From Desulfoferula mesophila (GTDB lineage Bacteria > Desulfobacterota > Desulfarculia > Desulfarculales > Desulfarculaceae), in the NCBI RefSeq assembly GCF_037076455.1, contig NZ_AP028679.1:2681501-2745500 (forward strand): a DNA stretch of 64,000 nucleotides, read 5' to 3'. A model generated the notes under the pieces. It saw only the letters and a program-made list of their open reading frames with translations, was not told the DNA's origin and did not search any database. Position numbers and translations under genes: made by a program. The stretch's first letter is position 1. Every line of letters begins with the position of its first letter. Shown here one piece after another: positions 38,290-48,564 of the stretch.

Positions 38290-39282
38290 CTAGTCAATGA
38301 TCTTGACGTAATTGTCCGAGCGCAGCTTTTTCATCCAGTCCTTGAATATCTTTTCCATCTTTTGTTGGGCAAGCTTGGAGCGTATCTGCTCATTTACCTG
38401 GGCCAGACCCAGATCCTTGCTGCCACTGCGATCGATCAGCTTCATGATCACGAAGCCCTGGGGGATCTGGAGCACTTCGCTCACTTGGTCGGGCTTGAGC
38501 TCACCCAAAGCCTGGCGCATGCTGGGCAACAGGTCGCTGGCCTTGACCGGCCCCAAGCGCCCGCCTTTCTCAGCTCCCGGCCCCTGGGAATACTGCTGGG
38601 CCAGCTTGCCGAAGTCTTCGCCGGCCTTGATCTTTTGTAAAATATTTTCCGCCTGCTGGCGCACGGCGTTTTCAGCGGTCAACCCGGCTTGGGGGTCCAC
38701 CTTCAAGAAGATGGCCATGATGTTGACCTCGTCCATGTTTTGGTACTGCGCGTAATTCTTTTTGTAGTACTCCTCGACCTCGGCATCGGTGACCACCACC
38801 TGCTTTTGGACTTCTTGGTTTATCAGGCGCTGCTTGAGGATATCTTGGCGCAGATCGTCGCGGTATTCCTGCAGGGTCATTCCCTGGCGGCTCAGGCTGG
38901 CCACGAAGTCCTCTTCGGTGAGGTTGTTGTTTCGTTTGATGCTGTCGATGTAGTGGTTCAACTCCTCGTCGCTGACCGACAGGCCGAGCCTCTTCACCTC
39001 TTTGGCGAAGATCTTTTCATCGATCATGCGCTCCAGGGCCATCCGCCGGATTTGGGCCGGAGGCACGCCGCCGGCTTGCTGCATGGCTTCCATGCGGGCC
39101 AGGTCCATTTTCAGACGGCGTATAGCCCGGTTGAGTTCCATGGAGGTGACGACTTCGTCGTCAACGATGGCCACCACCCGGTTGACAACCACTTCCTCGG
39201 CCGCATGGGCCGAGCCCAGCCCCATGGGAAAAGCCAAAAAACCTGCCATGAGGAAGCAGCACAGGAAACGTCGCGGCATCAT
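38290..39282 (-). CDS. Periplasmic SurA-like peptidyl-prolyl isomerase/chaperone
   Basis: The 330-residue protein has a signal peptide (cleavage near GSAHA, about 27), an N-terminal SurA chaperone domain (VVNRVVAIVDDEVVTSMELNRAIRRL, LNHYIDSIKRNNNLTEEDFVASLSRQGMTLQEYRDDLR) and one PPIC/parvulin domain (VNIMAIFLKVDP, AGEDFGKLAQQYSQGPGAEKGGRLG, VLQIPQGFVIMKLID). SurA assists folding of outer-membrane proteins in the periplasm; having a single parvulin domain is common outside the gammaproteobacteria. It overlaps the lipoprotein gene by 4 nt and follows it on the minus strand, so the two chaperones and mfd form one operon. Confidence 0.88.
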   Translation of the reverse strand: MMPRRFLCCFLMAGFLAFPMGLGSAHAAEEVVVNRVVAIVDDEVVTSMELNRAIRRLKMDLARMEAMQQAGGVPPAQIRRMALERMIDEKIFAKEVKRLGLSVSDEELNHYIDSIKRNNNLTEEDFVASLSRQGMTLQEYRDDLRQDILKQRLINQEVQKQVVVTDAEVEEYYKKNYAQYQNMDEVNIMAIFLKVDPQAGLTAENAVRQQAENILQKIKAGEDFGKLAQQYSQGPGAEKGGRLGPVKASDLLPSMRQALGELKPDQVSEVLQIPQGFVIMKLIDRSGSKDLGLAQVNEQIRSKLAQQKMEKIFKDWMKKLRSDNYVKIID

Positions 39283-40265
39283 TTACTCCTTGCAGAGGCC
39301 ACCTGGCCCTTATCCAAAAACTGTTGGTCATAGATTATAACCGATTTGGCCTTTAGCTCCTCTAGCAAGGAAACGGCCAGCGCCTCCTGCTTTTGAGCGA
39401 CCAGTTTTTTCTGTATCTCCGGCGCGGCCTGGGCCAAGCTGAGGGAGCTGGCCGGACGCTTGGCCGTCACCCGCAGCACATGGAAACCATAAGGACTGGG
39501 CAGAGGCCCGGCCAGCTGGCCCGCTTTCAGGGCGAAGACCTTGGCTTCCAGGCCCGGCGGCATGTGGCCCCGGCTCAGCCAGGTGGGCTGCCCTCCCCCG
39601 GCCAGGGGAGCGCCCATCTGCTCCGCGGCCTGGCTCATGTCTTTACCCTCCTGCACCTGATCCACCAGCTTCTGGGCCATACCCTTGTTGGGCAGCAGGG
39701 CGTGCTGGGCCAAAATCTGCTCCGGCCGATAAAACTCTTCGCGGTGGCCCTGGTAATAGTCGGTAATCATTTTGGGCGTCACCCGTATCTGGGGACGCAG
39801 GATGAGGCGCAGGGCCTTTTCCATCAACAGTTGGTCGGCCAGCTCCCTTTGCCATTGCTCTTGGCTGATGCCGTGCACGGCCAAATTGTGCTTGAAGACA
39901 TCGGGCGCCAACTTGCTGAAAAGCTGCTCCTGGCGCTTGGCCAACTCCTCGGGCTGCAAAACTATGCCTTGGCGCGCGGCTTCGGCCAACAGCAGCATGC
40001 GGGTCACCAAGCCATCCAGCACCGCCCGTCTCAACTCCGGCTCCAACAGGGCGGGATCTCCCCCCAGCCCCATGAAGGCGGCCCGGCATTGGAATGCCGC
40101 CAGAGTCACCGGCTTGCCGTTCACCTTGGCCACCGAGGGCGGCCCCTGTTTCTCACCAGAAGCGCAAGCCACCAAGGACGCGGCCAGCAAGATGGCCAGC
40201 GCCCAATAGAGCCCCCTGGGGACTCTATGGGAGGACACCTGCTGAGATGTTACTAATACCGCCAT
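39279..40265 (-). CDS. PpiC/PrsA-like peptidyl-prolyl isomerase lipoprotein
   Basis: The 328-residue protein has a lipoprotein signal with lipobox LVAC (SLVACASG, Cys about 35), SurA_N-like helical region (VNGKPVTLAAFQCRAAFMGLGGD, VTRMLLLAEAARQGIVLQPEEL) and a PPIC domain (RPEQILAQHALLPNKGMAQKLVDQVQEGKDMSQAAEQ, GFHVLRVTAKRPA). It would be anchored in the outer or inner membrane facing the periplasm and help fold exported proteins. I chose ATG 40265; a GTG seven codons upstream overlaps the mfd stop. It sits between mfd and the SurA-like gene. Confidence 0.85.
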   Translation of the reverse strand: MAVLVTSQQVSSHRVPRGLYWALAILLAASLVACASGEKQGPPSVAKVNGKPVTLAAFQCRAAFMGLGGDPALLEPELRRAVLDGLVTRMLLLAEAARQGIVLQPEELAKRQEQLFSKLAPDVFKHNLAVHGISQEQWQRELADQLLMEKALRLILRPQIRVTPKMITDYYQGHREEFYRPEQILAQHALLPNKGMAQKLVDQVQEGKDMSQAAEQMGAPLAGGGQPTWLSRGHMPPGLEAKVFALKAGQLAGPLPSPYGFHVLRVTAKRPASSLSLAQAAPEIQKKLVAQKQEALAVSLLEELKAKSVIIYDQQFLDKGQVASARSK

Positions 40266-40275
40266 GTTATCGGCT

Positions 40276-43200
40276 CTAGTTACCACCGCGACTGATGTAT
40301 TGCAAGAATTGCTTGGCTTGCTCCAAGGGGGGGCGCTCGGTCGTCAAGCGCAGCTTCACCCGGCCGTCGGGAAACACCCGCACCTTTTCCGGCTGCTCCT
40401 GGGCCATGGCCAATAGCCGGTCCAGGTTCAAGCCCTCGGTATGGGTGAAATAGGCCATCAAACCGTCGCTGGACAGGTCCAGCCGGTCTGATTGCATATG
40501 GCGCAACAAAACCTTGAGCTCCACCCCGCCCAAAAGGTTGTCCGCCGCCGCCGGGGGGGCGCCGAAGCGGTCGTTCATCTCCGAGGCCACCTGTTCCAGC
40601 TGCTCGGCGTTGCGCACCCCGCTCAAACGCCGGTACAGACTCAGGCGCACCTCCGCATCGGGCACGTAGCTCTCGGGCAGGTGGGCGGGCAGGCCCAGCT
40701 TGAGCTCGGGCTCCGGCCCTTCCGGCGGGGCCTCGCCCTTGAGCCGGGCAATGGCCTCTTCCAGCATGCGCAAATAAAGCTCGTAGCCCACCTCGGCGGC
40801 CACCCCGCTCTGGGCCTCGCCCAGCATGTTGCCCGCCCCGCGAATCTGCAAATCGTGCATGGCGATGGAAAAGCCCGCCCCCAGTTGGGTGAAGTCCATG
40901 AGCGCCTTGAGGCGCTTGGCCGCCTGGCGGCTTAGGCTGGCCTCCGAGCGCACGAACAAATAGGCGTAGGCCCGGCGCTCGGAGCGCCCCACCCGGCCCC
41001 GCAACTGGTAAATCTGGCTCAGGCCGAACTTGTCGGCGTTGTTGATGATGATGGTGTTGGCACTGGGGATGTCCAGGCCCGACTCGATGATGGTGGTGCA
41101 CACCAACACGTCCAGCTCGCGGCGCACGAAACTGAGCATGACCCGCTCCAGCTCCTTTTCGGGAAGCTGGCCGTGGGCCACGGCCACCCGCACTCCGGGC
41201 ACCAGGCGCCCCACCATGGCCGCCATCTTGCCGATGTCCTGCACCCGGTTGTGCACGAAAAACACCTGGCCCTCGCGGGCCAGCTCGCGCTCGATGGCCT
41301 GGGCCACGGCCTTGGGGCTAAAGGAAGCCACGTAGGTCTTGATGGCCCGGCGGTCGGCGGGGGGGGTATTGATGACGCTCAGATCCCTGAGGCCCGACAG
41401 GCTCATCTGCAGGGTGCGGGGAATGGGGGTGGCGGTGAGGGTGAGCACGTCCACCAGGCGGCGCATCTTTTTGAGGCGCTCCTTGTCCTTGACCCCGAAG
41501 CGCTGTTCCTCGTCCACCACCATGAGGCCCAGATCCTTGAACTCCACGTCCTTTTGCAAGATGCGGTGGGTGCCGACCACGATGTCCACCGCGCCCGCCT
41601 TGAGCCCGGCCAAGACCTCCCGCTGCTGGGCCGGGGTCTTGAAACGGCTCAGGGAGGCCACCTCCAGGGGCTGATCCACCAGGCGCTCCACGAAGGTCTG
41701 GTAGTGCTGCTCGGCCAGCACCGTAGTGGGCACCAAAAATGCCACCTGGCGTCCCTGCATGGCCACCAGGTAGGCGGCGCGCAGGGCCACCTCGGTCTTG
41801 CCGAAGCCCACGTCGCCGCACACCAGGCGGTCCATGGGCTTGGGGGCCGAAAGATCGGCCAGGACGTCCTGGATGGCCCGGGCCTGGTCCGGGGTCTCCT
41901 CCCAGGGGAAGCCGGCCTCGAACTCCCGGAAGGCGCTGTCCGGCGGGGTGAAGGACTTGCCCTTGGCCACCGAGCGGGCGGCGTAGAGCTCCACCAGGTC
42001 GTGGGCGATGAGCTCCACCGCCTTTTTGGCCCGGCCCCTCACCCGCTCCCAGGCGCGGCCGCCCAACTGGTCCAGCTTGGGCTTGGCTCCCTCGGGGCCC
42101 CGGTATTTGCTGATGAGCCCCATGCGGTCGGCGGGCAGATACAGCTTGTCGCCCCCGGCAAAGGTCAGGTGCAAAAAGTCGCTCTCCGCCGCGCCCACGG
42201 CCACGGTGGTCAGGCCCTCGTAGCGGGCCACCCCGTGGTCGATGTGCACCACCAGGTCGCCGGGCTCCATGTCGTCCAGGGCGGCCAGCATCTCGCTGAG
42301 CCGGGGCGGGGCCTTGTGGCGCACCACCCGGGGCGCGCCGAACACCTCGTCCTCGGTGATGAAGCACACCGGCAGCTCGGCCGGAGCCAGCCCGGCGGTG
42401 AGCACCCCCTCCATGAGGAATAGAGGCGTCTCGTCGGTGGGAGGCGGCCAGGTCTCGGCGGCCGTGCCCACCACCCGAACCAGAACCTCGCGCTCGCTGA
42501 GTAGCTCGGCCAGGCGCTCCACCTGAGAGCGGGAGCGGCACACCAGGGTCACGCTGCGGCCTTGTTCCCGCCGGGCCTCCGCCCAGGCCAGGAAGCGGGT
42601 GATCACCGACCCTTCGCCGCCGCGCTTGAGCTCCTGGTGCAGGCCGGGGAAGGTCTCGGCCTTCAGGCGCACCAGGGGAGCTTCGCCCGGCTCGTCCAGA
42701 CCCATGGCCAGGGCCCGGCACAGAAGGTGGGGCCGCTCCTTCAGGCGCTGGGCCATCTGACCGGGAGTGCGCCGCAGCAAGGGCGGGGCCAGCACCACCC
42801 GGCCGTCTTCCCGCGCCTCGCCGAACTGAACCTCCATCTCCTCGGCGTCGGCCTTCAGGCGGTTGTCCACCTCGGCGGGTTCCAAGACGTAGAGCCAGGC
42901 CTCTTCGGACAGATAGCTGAAGATGTCCCCGGCGTTTTTGAAAAACACCGGCAGCAGCGACTCCAGTCCGCTGAAGGGGGCGCGCAGCTCGATCTTTTCC
43001 ACCAGCTCGGCCAGGCGGCGGGTGGAGAGCCCCTCCTCCCGGGCCAGCTTGCGCAGGCGCTCCACCGCCCGCTTGGCCGCCTCCGGCGACAGCTCCACCG
43101 GCAGGCAGGGAATCAAGCCGGCCTCTCGCAGGGGAAGCTGGGAGCGCTGGTCGCTGGGATCGAAGCGCCTGAGGCTCTCGATCTCGTCGCCGAAAAACTC

Positions 43201-43830
43201 CACCCGCACCGGATCGTCCAACAGGGGGCCGAAGAAATCCACCACCGAGCCGCGCACCGCGAAGTCGCCCACCTGCTCCACCAGGCCCACCGGGGTGTAG
43301 CCCCCTTGGGCCAGAGCGGCCACCAGGGCGTCGCGCTCCAGGCGTTGCCCCTTGCTCAATTCCAAGAAATTATCAAGCAGGTGCTCGGGCGGGCACAGGC
43401 GCGAGGCGGCGGCCACCGCCGAGGTGACCACCAGCAGGGGCTCTTCGGCGGCGATGAGCTCCCACATTACGGACAGGCGCCGGGCGGTTACCTCCGGCGG
43501 GGGGTCCAGCTCTTGGTAGGGACTTACCTCATAGGCCGGGAACAGGCGCACCGGCGATCCGTCCCGGCCCTGACCGGCCAGAAAAAATTCCAGATCGCGC
43601 ACCAGGGTCTCGGCCATGGACAAGGTGGGGCAAACCACCAGGGTGGTGCGGGGGGCGCTGTTGAACAAGCGAGCCAAGGCAAAGGCCCGGCCAGCGCCCT
43701 CCAGGCCGCCCAACAGGGCCGCGCCTGATTCGCGCAACAGACGACTAGCCTCGTCCAGGCGTTCTCCGGCCGGCCAGTATCGCCGCGACCCATTTTTCTG
43801 ATCAGCGTTCATTCCCAGCGTAATTTTCAC
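40276..43830 (-). CDS. mfd: Transcription-repair coupling factor
   Basis: The 1184-residue protein is full length for Mfd: an N-terminal UvrB-homology region (LVVCPTLSMAETLVRDLEFFL, RLFPAYEVSPYQELDPPPEV), the RNA-polymerase-interaction domain (PGDLVVHIDHGVARYEGL), the RecG-like translocase with Walker A VCGDVGFGKTEVALRAAYL, DEEQRFGV, TATPIPRTLQMSLSG and QLRGRVGRSERRAYAYL, and the C-terminal TRCF domain (ESYVPDAEVRLSLYRRLSG). It displaces RNA polymerase stalled at lesions and recruits UvrA. Start is GTG 43830 or ATG 43812; neither has a strong ribosome site. It is followed closely by two periplasmic chaperone genes. Confidence 0.96.
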   Translation of the reverse strand: MKITLGMNADQKNGSRRYWPAGERLDEASRLLRESGAALLGGLEGAGRAFALARLFNSAPRTTLVVCPTLSMAETLVRDLEFFLAGQGRDGSPVRLFPAYEVSPYQELDPPPEVTARRLSVMWELIAAEEPLLVVTSAVAAASRLCPPEHLLDNFLELSKGQRLERDALVAALAQGGYTPVGLVEQVGDFAVRGSVVDFFGPLLDDPVRVEFFGDEIESLRRFDPSDQRSQLPLREAGLIPCLPVELSPEAAKRAVERLRKLAREEGLSTRRLAELVEKIELRAPFSGLESLLPVFFKNAGDIFSYLSEEAWLYVLEPAEVDNRLKADAEEMEVQFGEAREDGRVVLAPPLLRRTPGQMAQRLKERPHLLCRALAMGLDEPGEAPLVRLKAETFPGLHQELKRGGEGSVITRFLAWAEARREQGRSVTLVCRSRSQVERLAELLSEREVLVRVVGTAAETWPPPTDETPLFLMEGVLTAGLAPAELPVCFITEDEVFGAPRVVRHKAPPRLSEMLAALDDMEPGDLVVHIDHGVARYEGLTTVAVGAAESDFLHLTFAGGDKLYLPADRMGLISKYRGPEGAKPKLDQLGGRAWERVRGRAKKAVELIAHDLVELYAARSVAKGKSFTPPDSAFREFEAGFPWEETPDQARAIQDVLADLSAPKPMDRLVCGDVGFGKTEVALRAAYLVAMQGRQVAFLVPTTVLAEQHYQTFVERLVDQPLEVASLSRFKTPAQQREVLAGLKAGAVDIVVGTHRILQKDVEFKDLGLMVVDEEQRFGVKDKERLKKMRRLVDVLTLTATPIPRTLQMSLSGLRDLSVINTPPADRRAIKTYVASFSPKAVAQAIERELAREGQVFFVHNRVQDIGKMAAMVGRLVPGVRVAVAHGQLPEKELERVMLSFVRRELDVLVCTTIIESGLDIPSANTIIINNADKFGLSQIYQLRGRVGRSERRAYAYLFVRSEASLSRQAAKRLKALMDFTQLGAGFSIAMHDLQIRGAGNMLGEAQSGVAAEVGYELYLRMLEEAIARLKGEAPPEGPEPELKLGLPAHLPESYVPDAEVRLSLYRRLSGVRNAEQLEQVASEMNDRFGAPPAAADNLLGGVELKVLLRHMQSDRLDLSSDGLMAYFTHTEGLNLDRLLAMAQEQPEKVRVFPDGRVKLRLTTERPPLEQAKQFLQYISRGGN

Positions 43831-44153
43831 CCTGTGAATTTATCCCCACGCAGCCTTCGCCGTCCCCTTACGTCGCCCCCATAAATTGCTTCAACTAACT
43901 ACTTTAATTTTAACCATATTGGCAACCCGGCTTGAAAACTGGCATAAATAGGCCAATTCCAAGCGTATGCCTACATATTTTTACCACAAAATAGTCACAA
44001 CTTAATCACAGCAAGGGCTAACTCGTTGTTTCCGTTGGCTCAAAGATAACCGAGCCTGGGCCGTGCGGCAAGCGTCCTCGGCTGGGAGACGGCCGCCACC
44101 TGGGGTATACTGTTGCTCCACCCAAGACGGCCCGCCAGCAACGAGGAGTTCTT
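43831..44153. other. Divergent intergenic region between mfd and the RtcA-like gene
   Basis: AT-rich promoter-like DNA without a gene. A TATACT hexamer at 44106-44111 lies 43 nt before the RtcA-like start and is a fair -10 candidate; no convincing -35 is seen. Confidence 0.4.
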
Positions 44154-45227
44154 TTGCAGGACATGGTGGAGATAAAAGACGGCGGCGCGGCGCGCAATGC
44201 CGGTTTACGCATCGGCCTGGCTTTGAGCCTTATCACCGGCCGACCCACGCGATTGGGCGGCCTGGTGGACGACGCCCCCCGTCCCCGGCCGGGCCTGGGC
44301 CCCGGCGGGCTTACCCAGGCCGTGGCCGCCTCGGCGGTAAGCCGTGGCCGGTTGCAGGCCGAGGCCGGTTCGCCGGAGTTGACCCTCACCCCCGGCGGCC
44401 CGCCCCAACCCGGTGATTACCACCTGGACGTGGCCCACCTGGAGCCCAGCTCCGCCCCCTTCAGCCCCCTGTTGGAGATGCTGCTGCCGCCCCTTTCCCT
44501 GGCCGGCGGCACCAGCGGCCTGATCCTGCGCGGGGGCAGCCACGTGATGGGCGGTCCCACCAGCGACGAGATATCCACGGTGCTCCTGCCCAACTGGCGC
44601 GCCCTGGGTCTCAACGCCGACTATCGGGAGATATCCCCCGGCTTTTTCCCCGGCGGCGGCGGCGAGGCCGAGGTCACGGTGGTGGAGGCTGGCGGCCCCT
44701 TGAACTCCATCCGGGCCGAGGAGCCTTTCCAGGTCCGCGAGGTGGGAGTGGAGGTGCTGTGCTCCAACCTGCCGGTGCACCTAGCCGAGCAGGCCATGCA
44801 AGGCGCCCTGGACCGCCTGGCCCTGCACGGGCTCAGCGGCGAGGGCAACCTGCGCCGGGCCAAGGGCGGCAAGGGCCAGGCCCTGCTGGTGTGGGCCGGA
44901 GACGGCCGCTTGCGCATCGGCTTTTCCACCCTGGGCAAGCGGGGCAGCCGCCCCGAGGCCCTGGCCCTGGAGGCGGTGGAGGCCCTCACCCACTTCCTCA
45001 AAAGCGGGGCCGGTCTGCCCTCGGCCCTGGCCGCGCGCATGCTGTTGTGCCTGGCCTGCGCCAAGGGCATCAGCCATTTCACGGTGAGCGGCCCGCCCAA
45101 GCCATTGCAGGCGGCCATGAAGATCATCAACGCCTTTTGGCCCGGCACGGTGCGCCTATCCTCGCCGCGGGACGAAGCCCTTTTGGAAGTAAAGGTCATC
45201 GGCCGTGACTGGGGCCGGGTGCTTTAA
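44154..45227 (+). CDS. RNA 3'-phosphate cyclase-like protein (RtcA/Rcl1 family), catalytic His missing
   Basis: The 357-residue protein follows the RtcA fold: VEIKDGGAARNAGLRIGLALSLITGRPTRL (usually EGGGQILRxALALS), PGLGPGGLTQAVAAS, GGTSGLILRGGSHVMGGPTSDEISTVLLP and FFPGGGGEAEVTV. RtcA converts RNA 3'-phosphate ends to 2',3'-cyclic phosphate using ATP through an adenylated histidine in a C-terminal HPSCHLLTN-like motif. Here that place reads VSGPPKPLQAAM, with proline (about residue 317) where the histidine should be. It may therefore be a non-catalytic or altered relative, like eukaryotic Rcl1. The TTG at 44154 has GAGGAG 5 nt upstream. No rtcB is nearby. Confidence 0.78.
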   Translation: MQDMVEIKDGGAARNAGLRIGLALSLITGRPTRLGGLVDDAPRPRPGLGPGGLTQAVAASAVSRGRLQAEAGSPELTLTPGGPPQPGDYHLDVAHLEPSSAPFSPLLEMLLPPLSLAGGTSGLILRGGSHVMGGPTSDEISTVLLPNWRALGLNADYREISPGFFPGGGGEAEVTVVEAGGPLNSIRAEEPFQVREVGVEVLCSNLPVHLAEQAMQGALDRLALHGLSGEGNLRRAKGGKGQALLVWAGDGRLRIGFSTLGKRGSRPEALALEAVEALTHFLKSGAGLPSALAARMLLCLACAKGISHFTVSGPPKPLQAAMKIINAFWPGTVRLSSPRDEALLEVKVIGRDWGRVL

Positions 45228-45243
45228 TATCTCCTGAAAATCC

Positions 45244-45360
45244 TCAGCGACCCTCCCACTTGGGCTCGCGCTTTTCCAAAAAGGCGCTGATGCCCTCTTG
45301 GGCGTCGTGCAGGCCCAGGTTGAGGCCCATGACCGGGGTGGCCCCCACCAGCACAAAATC
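45244..45360 (-). pseudogene. 3' remnant of an enoyl-CoA hydratase/crotonase gene
   Basis: A minus-strand frame reads DFVLVGATPVMGLNLGLHDA then QEGISAFLEKREPKWEGR and stop, the characteristic crotonase C-terminus (DAxEGxxAFLEKRxPxW). An in-frame TAG directly precedes it and there is no start, so only the last 38 codons remain. It is not derived from the complete crotonase gene at 52088, whose end reads differently (AGIEKREPNFPEE). Confidence 0.8.
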
Positions 45361-47460: not shown

Positions 47461-48564
47461 TCAGCGGGGTTCTCCGCTGCAACAAGGGGACTTGATACCC
47501 GGGTCAAAGCTGCTTTTTTTCACGGAGGAGTTGCCCATGCCCAGCATATAGGCCTTGAAGACGCGCGAGGCCGGCTTGCCCGCGGACACCAGCCGCGCCG
47601 GAGCCGGTTTGGCCGGGATTTGGATTTTGGAGCCGTTCCAACTCAGCGCGAGTTGCAAGGCCCCTTGGGCCTTGTCTGCCAACGCCCGGACCATGATCAA
47701 CAGCGGGCCGGCGCCCGTAAGATTTCCCGCTTTCCACTCGCTCTGCATGGGCCGCCACTTGTCCGCCGTGAACAAGGCCAACCCCTGGGCCGGGGCCAAT
47801 GTCAGGGTGGCGGTGGCCCCGGCTGGCGCCTGCAACAGGAAATAGCGGGCTTCCCCTTTTTCAAGGGGGCCGATATTTACGATTTGCTTCAGGTCGCTTT
47901 TGCCGGAGCCTGTCTGTTGGCTCGCTCCGGGACCGGGCAGGATGGCGGCGGCGATCAATGGGGTGTAGTCCACCTTAAGTTTTACATACCCTGATTTGCC
48001 GCGGTCCTCGGGCAACAGGCACATGCAGCCCAGCAGGTTCTCGCCCGGCTCCAGGGTTCCCGGGGTCGCGACCATCCCTGAAGAATGATCAAAGCGGCGG
48101 TGCCCCCCTTTGTTCAACCCGCTGTTCAGACAAGAGGCGATCTTGGAGGCTTTCAGGAAAAAGGGCCGGCCTTGGGCTTTGCCCTCGCGGGTAAACATCT
48201 CCACGTCCAGCCGGTCCATGCGAAAAGTTATGGGGGCGCGTTGGGCGTCTTGCATAGAAGTGTTGACCAGCCCTTGATCCCAGCGGCCGTTGTTCACGCC
48301 ACACATGCAGCCGGACCCCTGGGTGTCGTGCGGGTCATGGCCCTTTGCCGCCAGAAAGTCGCTGAACGCCTGCAAACGCACATCTCCCCCATCCAGGGCA
48401 TCCAAGGCCTCCGGCTTGAACATCATTTCATAGTATACGCCTGGGAAACACCCCCCCGCCCAGGCCATGGGCGAGACCATAACCAGGGCCCCCACCATCA
48501 ACAAAGCCAAGCAGGCTGCCGCCCTGCATCCCAACCCATTGACCCTCCGACGAACAGATCTCAA
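47461..48564 (-). CDS. Secreted cysteine-containing protein of unknown function
   Basis: I do not recognise a family. The 367-residue protein has a signal peptide (about residues 10-36, ending SPMAWA) and then several short Cys motifs: GGCFPGVYY, GSGCMCGVNNG, LLGCMCLLP and a terminal SPCCSGEP. The region 230-330 is beta-rich (YFLLQAPAGATATLTLAPAQGLALF). Cys pairs may form disulfides or bind a metal or heme-like group, but there is no CxxCH. It has its own sigma-54 promoter and lies inside the TRAP/CoA-transferase locus, so an extracytoplasmic role in the same uptake or degradation pathway is plausible. The TTG at 48564 has AAGGAAGGGG upstream. Confidence 0.6.
   Translation of the reverse strand: MRSVRRRVNGLGCRAAACLALLMVGALVMVSPMAWAGGCFPGVYYEMMFKPEALDALDGGDVRLQAFSDFLAAKGHDPHDTQGSGCMCGVNNGRWDQGLVNTSMQDAQRAPITFRMDRLDVEMFTREGKAQGRPFFLKASKIASCLNSGLNKGGHRRFDHSSGMVATPGTLEPGENLLGCMCLLPEDRGKSGYVKLKVDYTPLIAAAILPGPGASQQTGSGKSDLKQIVNIGPLEKGEARYFLLQAPAGATATLTLAPAQGLALFTADKWRPMQSEWKAGNLTGAGPLLIMVRALADKAQGALQLALSWNGSKIQIPAKPAPARLVSAGKPASRVFKAYMLGMGNSSVKKSSFDPGIKSPCCSGEPR

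Follow-up and report, generated by a model that had tools for sequence, protein, structure and literature searches.

The gene at position 44154 of the window (the whole 64,000-nucleotide stretch of Desulfoferula mesophila DNA analyzed here) raises the question of whether a protein with the fold of the RNA cyclase RtcA, but with the catalytic histidine replaced, can still cyclize RNA ends and, if not, what it may be retained for. For an RNA-repair enzyme that became a non-catalytic factor, the known example is Rcl1, which helps to build ribosomes in eukaryotes. The gene and its start region are as follows.

44154 to 45227, plus strand: gene for an RtcA-like putative pseudo-cyclase of 357 amino acids, TTG start
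44143 to 44148, plus strand: GAGGAG, resembling a ribosome-binding site in sequence, 5 nucleotides upstream of the TTG

The TTG codon is the aligned start in 13 of the 17 full-length family rows. Both the RTC fold and its insert domain are present in the encoded protein, as judged from matches to Pfam RTC (89 bits; cut-off, 27) and RTC_insert (35.6 bits; cut-off, 23) and from superposition on RtcA. The predicted model (AlphaFold, 9 sequences; five models averaged pLDDT 68 to 86) had a pLDDT of 86 and a pTM of 0.87, and in structural alignment it matched RtcA structures with Z scores of 36 to 38 over 329 to 338 residues (26 to 27% identity) and Rcl1 with Z scores of 31 to 34. A reading made from the sequence alone had reported that the RtcA fold motifs are present, and these matches bear it out. 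However, neither equivalog cut-off of the NCBIfam RtcA models was reached (156.1 bits versus 250.05 and 152.9 bits versus 352), and three further members of the clade described below scored 172 to 180 bits against a cut-off of 250.

The positions at which the protein departs from canonical RtcAs are the following.

44178 to 44210, plus strand: residues 9 to 19, DGGAARNAGLR, replacing the GEGGGQILR loop; Glu14 is lost and Arg21 is kept (as R19)
44268 to 44273, plus strand: D39-D40, a two-residue insertion beside Arg40/Arg43; V38 replaces Arg40
44304 to 44309, plus strand: G51-G52, replacing Gln51-His52
45033 to 45038, plus strand: A294-R295, replacing Asp287-Gln288
45102 to 45104, plus strand: codon CCA, P317, at the position of the nucleophile His309 (from alignments)

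P317 lies opposite H309 of E. coli RtcA in the phmmer alignment to 1qmh and 3tut, and the same register was reproduced by a profile of 17 relatives. The proline that the sequence-only reading had placed at the H309 position is thus confirmed, as is the altered N-terminus that it had described (GGGQILR to DGGAARN), since canonical GEGGGQILR aligns with GGAARNAGLR.

The same divergent RTC was found in all 20 family genomes examined, which represent 7 genera; the Pfam search recovered it in 19 of them and the clade profile in all 20, the copy in G014 being a fragment. It is the sole RTC of each of these genomes, D. mesophila included. The family, one of sulfate-reducing bacteria, is Desulfarculaceae by its named records; the names under which close copies are recorded include Desulfarculaceae and Desulfarculus. 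Among 63 genomes of the class, three further genomes carry RTCs, all of them canonical. The survey covered one phylum, with RTCs in 131 of 395 sampled genomes, 10 of the 131 belonging to the family. Outside the family (121 RTC-bearing genomes, 122 rows, 7 of which stop short of the nucleophile position), histidine was present in 115 of the 115 rows that cover the position. A scan of genome contigs with the window protein alone as the query returned only close copies, at 8 loci, and the search for wider homologues found none in plasmids and none in viral contigs. A second type of RTC is also present in the phylum, accounting for 14 of the 83 canonical rows (L003, L121, L124 to L127, L130 to L136, and L141); it has GSGT instead of GGGQ, carries Ser at the Glu14 position and Thr at the Gln18 position, and retains the nucleophile histidine.

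Across the 20 family genomes the nucleophile position is occupied by P in 7, E in 5, A in 4, G in 3, and S in 1 (the Ser, in G014, was aligned by eye), and in none by histidine. The sequence-only reading had pointed to homologues with proline or glutamine at this site, an expectation that these residues do not fit. When 17 clade rows were compared with 83 canonical rows, Glu14, Arg40, Gln51, Asp287, and His309 were each found in none of the clade rows and His52 in 4; Thr312 was lost entirely or nearly so, Gln288 was lost in 15 rows, and Asn313 was lost in all. The structural glycines are retained in the clade, as are Arg21 (15/17) and Arg43 (13/17, with K or H in the other 4). A bacterial relative of RtcA without catalytic residues, which the sequence-only reading had proposed, therefore agrees with the sequence data from all 20 family genomes, and no paper on such a family was found in the open-licence literature.

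Of the seven residues that are essential, five (Glu14, Arg43, Gln51, His52, and the histidine) are missing from maize RCL1 according to the available part of PMC9048941, and the residues lost in the clade overlap this essential set. The window protein itself is without five residues of essential type, namely Glu14, Arg40, Gln51, His52, and the nucleophile histidine. The remaining two of the seven essential RTC residues we take to be Arg40 and Arg21.

A different histidine aligned as the nucleophile would have spoken against the sequence-only reading; all seven histidines of the window protein were checked as substitutes, and none takes over. H130 is the only histidine invariant in the clade, and it is also histidine in 99 of 125 canonical rows; H209 is a histidine common to canonical RtcAs; H225 is new in the clade (15/17 rows) and is located in the insert domain; and each of the rest occurs in at most 6 of the 17 clade rows.

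Loss of most catalytic positions on a long stem might be expected of a gene that is decaying and heading for loss, but the reading frame is intact, purifying selection extends across genomes of 7 genera, and identity between genera is near that of the SurA-like neighbors. dN/dS was 0.105 to 0.197 among the four closest rows; values for distant pairs reached 0.72, at distances where dS is unreliable in this GC-rich DNA. On these ratios the gene is under purifying selection, and decay seems hardly credible. Since the nucleophile and the ATP-handling residues are lost in all members while the frames are intact and selected, it is very likely that the family protein is a dead cyclase.

The distribution of constraint within the protein suggests what may have replaced catalysis. 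The region concerned is the following.

44730 to 44999, plus strand: insert domain, residues 193 to 282 (Pfam RTC_insert), the best-conserved region of the clade in the constraint test

In canonical RtcAs no other region is nearly as well conserved as the catalytic pocket, which had an entropy of 0.32 to 0.65 versus 0.91 to 1.36 elsewhere in five canonical groups of similar divergence, whereas in the clade the values were 1.02 and 1.27. With masks and regions that were the analyst's choice, the residual excess of pocket conservation in the clade had a p value of 0.02, or 0.086 with another mask. The insert domain of the clade had an entropy of 1.04 versus 1.30 elsewhere (circular-shift p, 0.039), the opposite of all six canonical sets, in which it is more variable than the remainder. 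Constraint thus appears to have moved largely away from the catalytic pocket, and there appears to be a modest shift toward the insert domain. The mean pI of the clade is lower than that of canonical RtcAs (8.2 versus 9.2), which argues against a general gain of basic character and is a point against a binding role.

The main rival to a protein without chemistry is an enzyme with a new function, in which the rebuilt pocket would catalyze or bind something else with N15, D39-D40, H130, E159, and the PTSDE segment as working residues. Several residues are near-fixed in the clade, including N15 (16/17), D40 (17/17, in a column that is empty in all 83 canonical rows), E159 (17/17), S137 (16/17), and D138 and E139 (15/17 each), and all are atypical of canonical RtcAs except D138, which occurs in 16 of the 83 canonical rows. 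The catalytic side chains have also been exchanged for small ones (Gln51 for G; Thr312 and Asn313 for A), a pattern that does not look random. The slight pocket conservation that persists, together with the fixed N15 and D40 in the adjoining loops, would be compatible with a new ligand or a new reaction as well. However, the pocket is hardly more conserved than background, in contrast to the large excess in working RtcAs, and the old nucleophile position varies freely among P, E, A, G, and S. A new activity is therefore possible but doubtful.

The likeness to Rcl1 raises a different possibility, that in bacteria the protein plays the part of Rcl1, as an RTC without catalysis that aids rRNA processing or ribosome assembly. 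The clade is monophyletic (support, 100/100), with a stem length of 1.52 changes per column, and it is placed inside the GEGGGQ-type bacterial RtcAs, with Rcl1 on a very long branch apart from it. A grouping of the clade with two Rcl1 rows was not rejected by the AU test (p, 0.319), and the match of the predicted fold to Rcl1 and the set of lost residues, which resembles that of maize RCL1 in the available part of PMC9048941, point in the same direction. On the other hand, the E values of the 17-relative profile were 7e-48 to RtcA and 7e-9 to Rcl1. The Rcl1 model TIGR03400 (cut-off, 227.95 bits) matched 8 of 17 clade members at all and gave 18 to 69 bits for three of them, versus 47 to 125 bits for five canonical RtcAs (three at 77 to 125 bits, the others at 47 and 51). 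The 125 bits belong to L003, of the GSGT type, the four other canonical RtcAs having 47 to 95. The Rcl1 fragment has Arg40 but no Arg43, the opposite of what the clade shows, and it has no D39-D40 insertion. Because the E values lie nearer RtcA, the TIGR03400 scores are weaker, and the opposite arginine was lost, the clade likely arose separately from Rcl1. The parallel that the sequence-only reading had drawn with Rcl1 is real in kind, in that a similar residue set was lost. No ribosomal genes are neighbors in the family loci, and on balance an Rcl1-like role seems unlikely.

Kinship with the RtcAs of the same class (L002 and L004) was rejected by the AU test (p, 0.0018), so the origin of the clade was not simply vertical from these RtcAs.

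The surroundings of the gene were examined for partners.

40276 to 43830, minus strand: mfd (transcription-repair coupling factor), the head-to-head neighbor
39279 to 40286, minus strand: PpiC/SurA-like gene, behind mfd

mfd is head to head with the putative pseudo-cyclase gene in 15 of 19 family loci (three of the 19 end at the latter gene), and two SurA/PpiC-like genes come after mfd. In the order-mate G020 the contig ends inside mfd. The most divergent family member (L074, in G012) is not by mfd, and neither RtcB nor archease was found in its genome. mfd being divergent, no co-directional or operon partner is conserved among the 19 family loci, and no promoter or terminator signals above chance were detected at the locus. 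Downstream, a 38-residue scrap on the minus strand (45247 to 45360), preceded by a stop, is similar to an enoyl-CoA hydratase C-terminus, although its Pfam match (E, 0.006) falls short of the cut-off, and a reading frame of 367 amino acids on the minus strand (47464 to 48564) has no Pfam match. Elsewhere in the D. mesophila genome, archease and rtcB genes adjoin at G000:C1:98071-100063 (L146).

It is conceivable that the protein assists or regulates the RtcB ligase as a subunit, having kept the contacts that RtcA makes with partners but not its chemistry. RtcB was found in 16 of the 20 family genomes, in D. mesophila beside archease, and according to the available part of PMC9650030, E. coli RtcA and RtcB bind RtcR in complexes whose formation does not need catalysis. 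However, E. coli RtcA is a working enzyme, the family gene is away from rtcB, RtcR was not found in the 20 genomes searched (12 of the family), and G012, which is 92% complete, has the gene with no RtcB found. Such a role is thus quite improbable.

The reading that we prefer is that of a pseudo-cyclase that probably acts by binding, mainly through its insert domain. An RtcA in the family ancestor would have lost the residues for self-adenylylation and ATP handling, and the dead protein would then have been retained for another use. Without an enzyme-AMP intermediate it would not cyclize RNA ends; it may instead bind an RNA 3' end or a ribonucleoprotein partner, most likely via the insert domain together with R19 and R43, and so serve RNA processing or repair as an adaptor without catalytic activity. 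More specifically, and only tentatively, it might be a dead RNA cyclase that bacteria evolved independently of Rcl1, with a role in the assembly of RNA or ribonucleoproteins and with the insert domain carrying the working surface.

The family protein resembles RtcA in its fold with the insert domain, its structural glycines, Arg21, and, mostly, Arg43, and differs from it in the absence of His309, Glu14, Arg40, Gln51, and Asp287 and in scores below the RtcA cut-offs. It resembles Rcl1, which lacks the histidine according to the available part of PMC9048941, as a conserved protein of the RTC fold without the catalytic set, but it is bacterial and has no known Bms1-like partner. The function of Rcl1 is itself disputed, with a reported nuclease activity set against results that point to Utp24 (PMC4914098, in its available part). 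A second, apparently separate case, fixed throughout a family as its only RTC, would show what uses the fold can have without its active site, and a match to Pfam RTC does not imply RNA cyclization.
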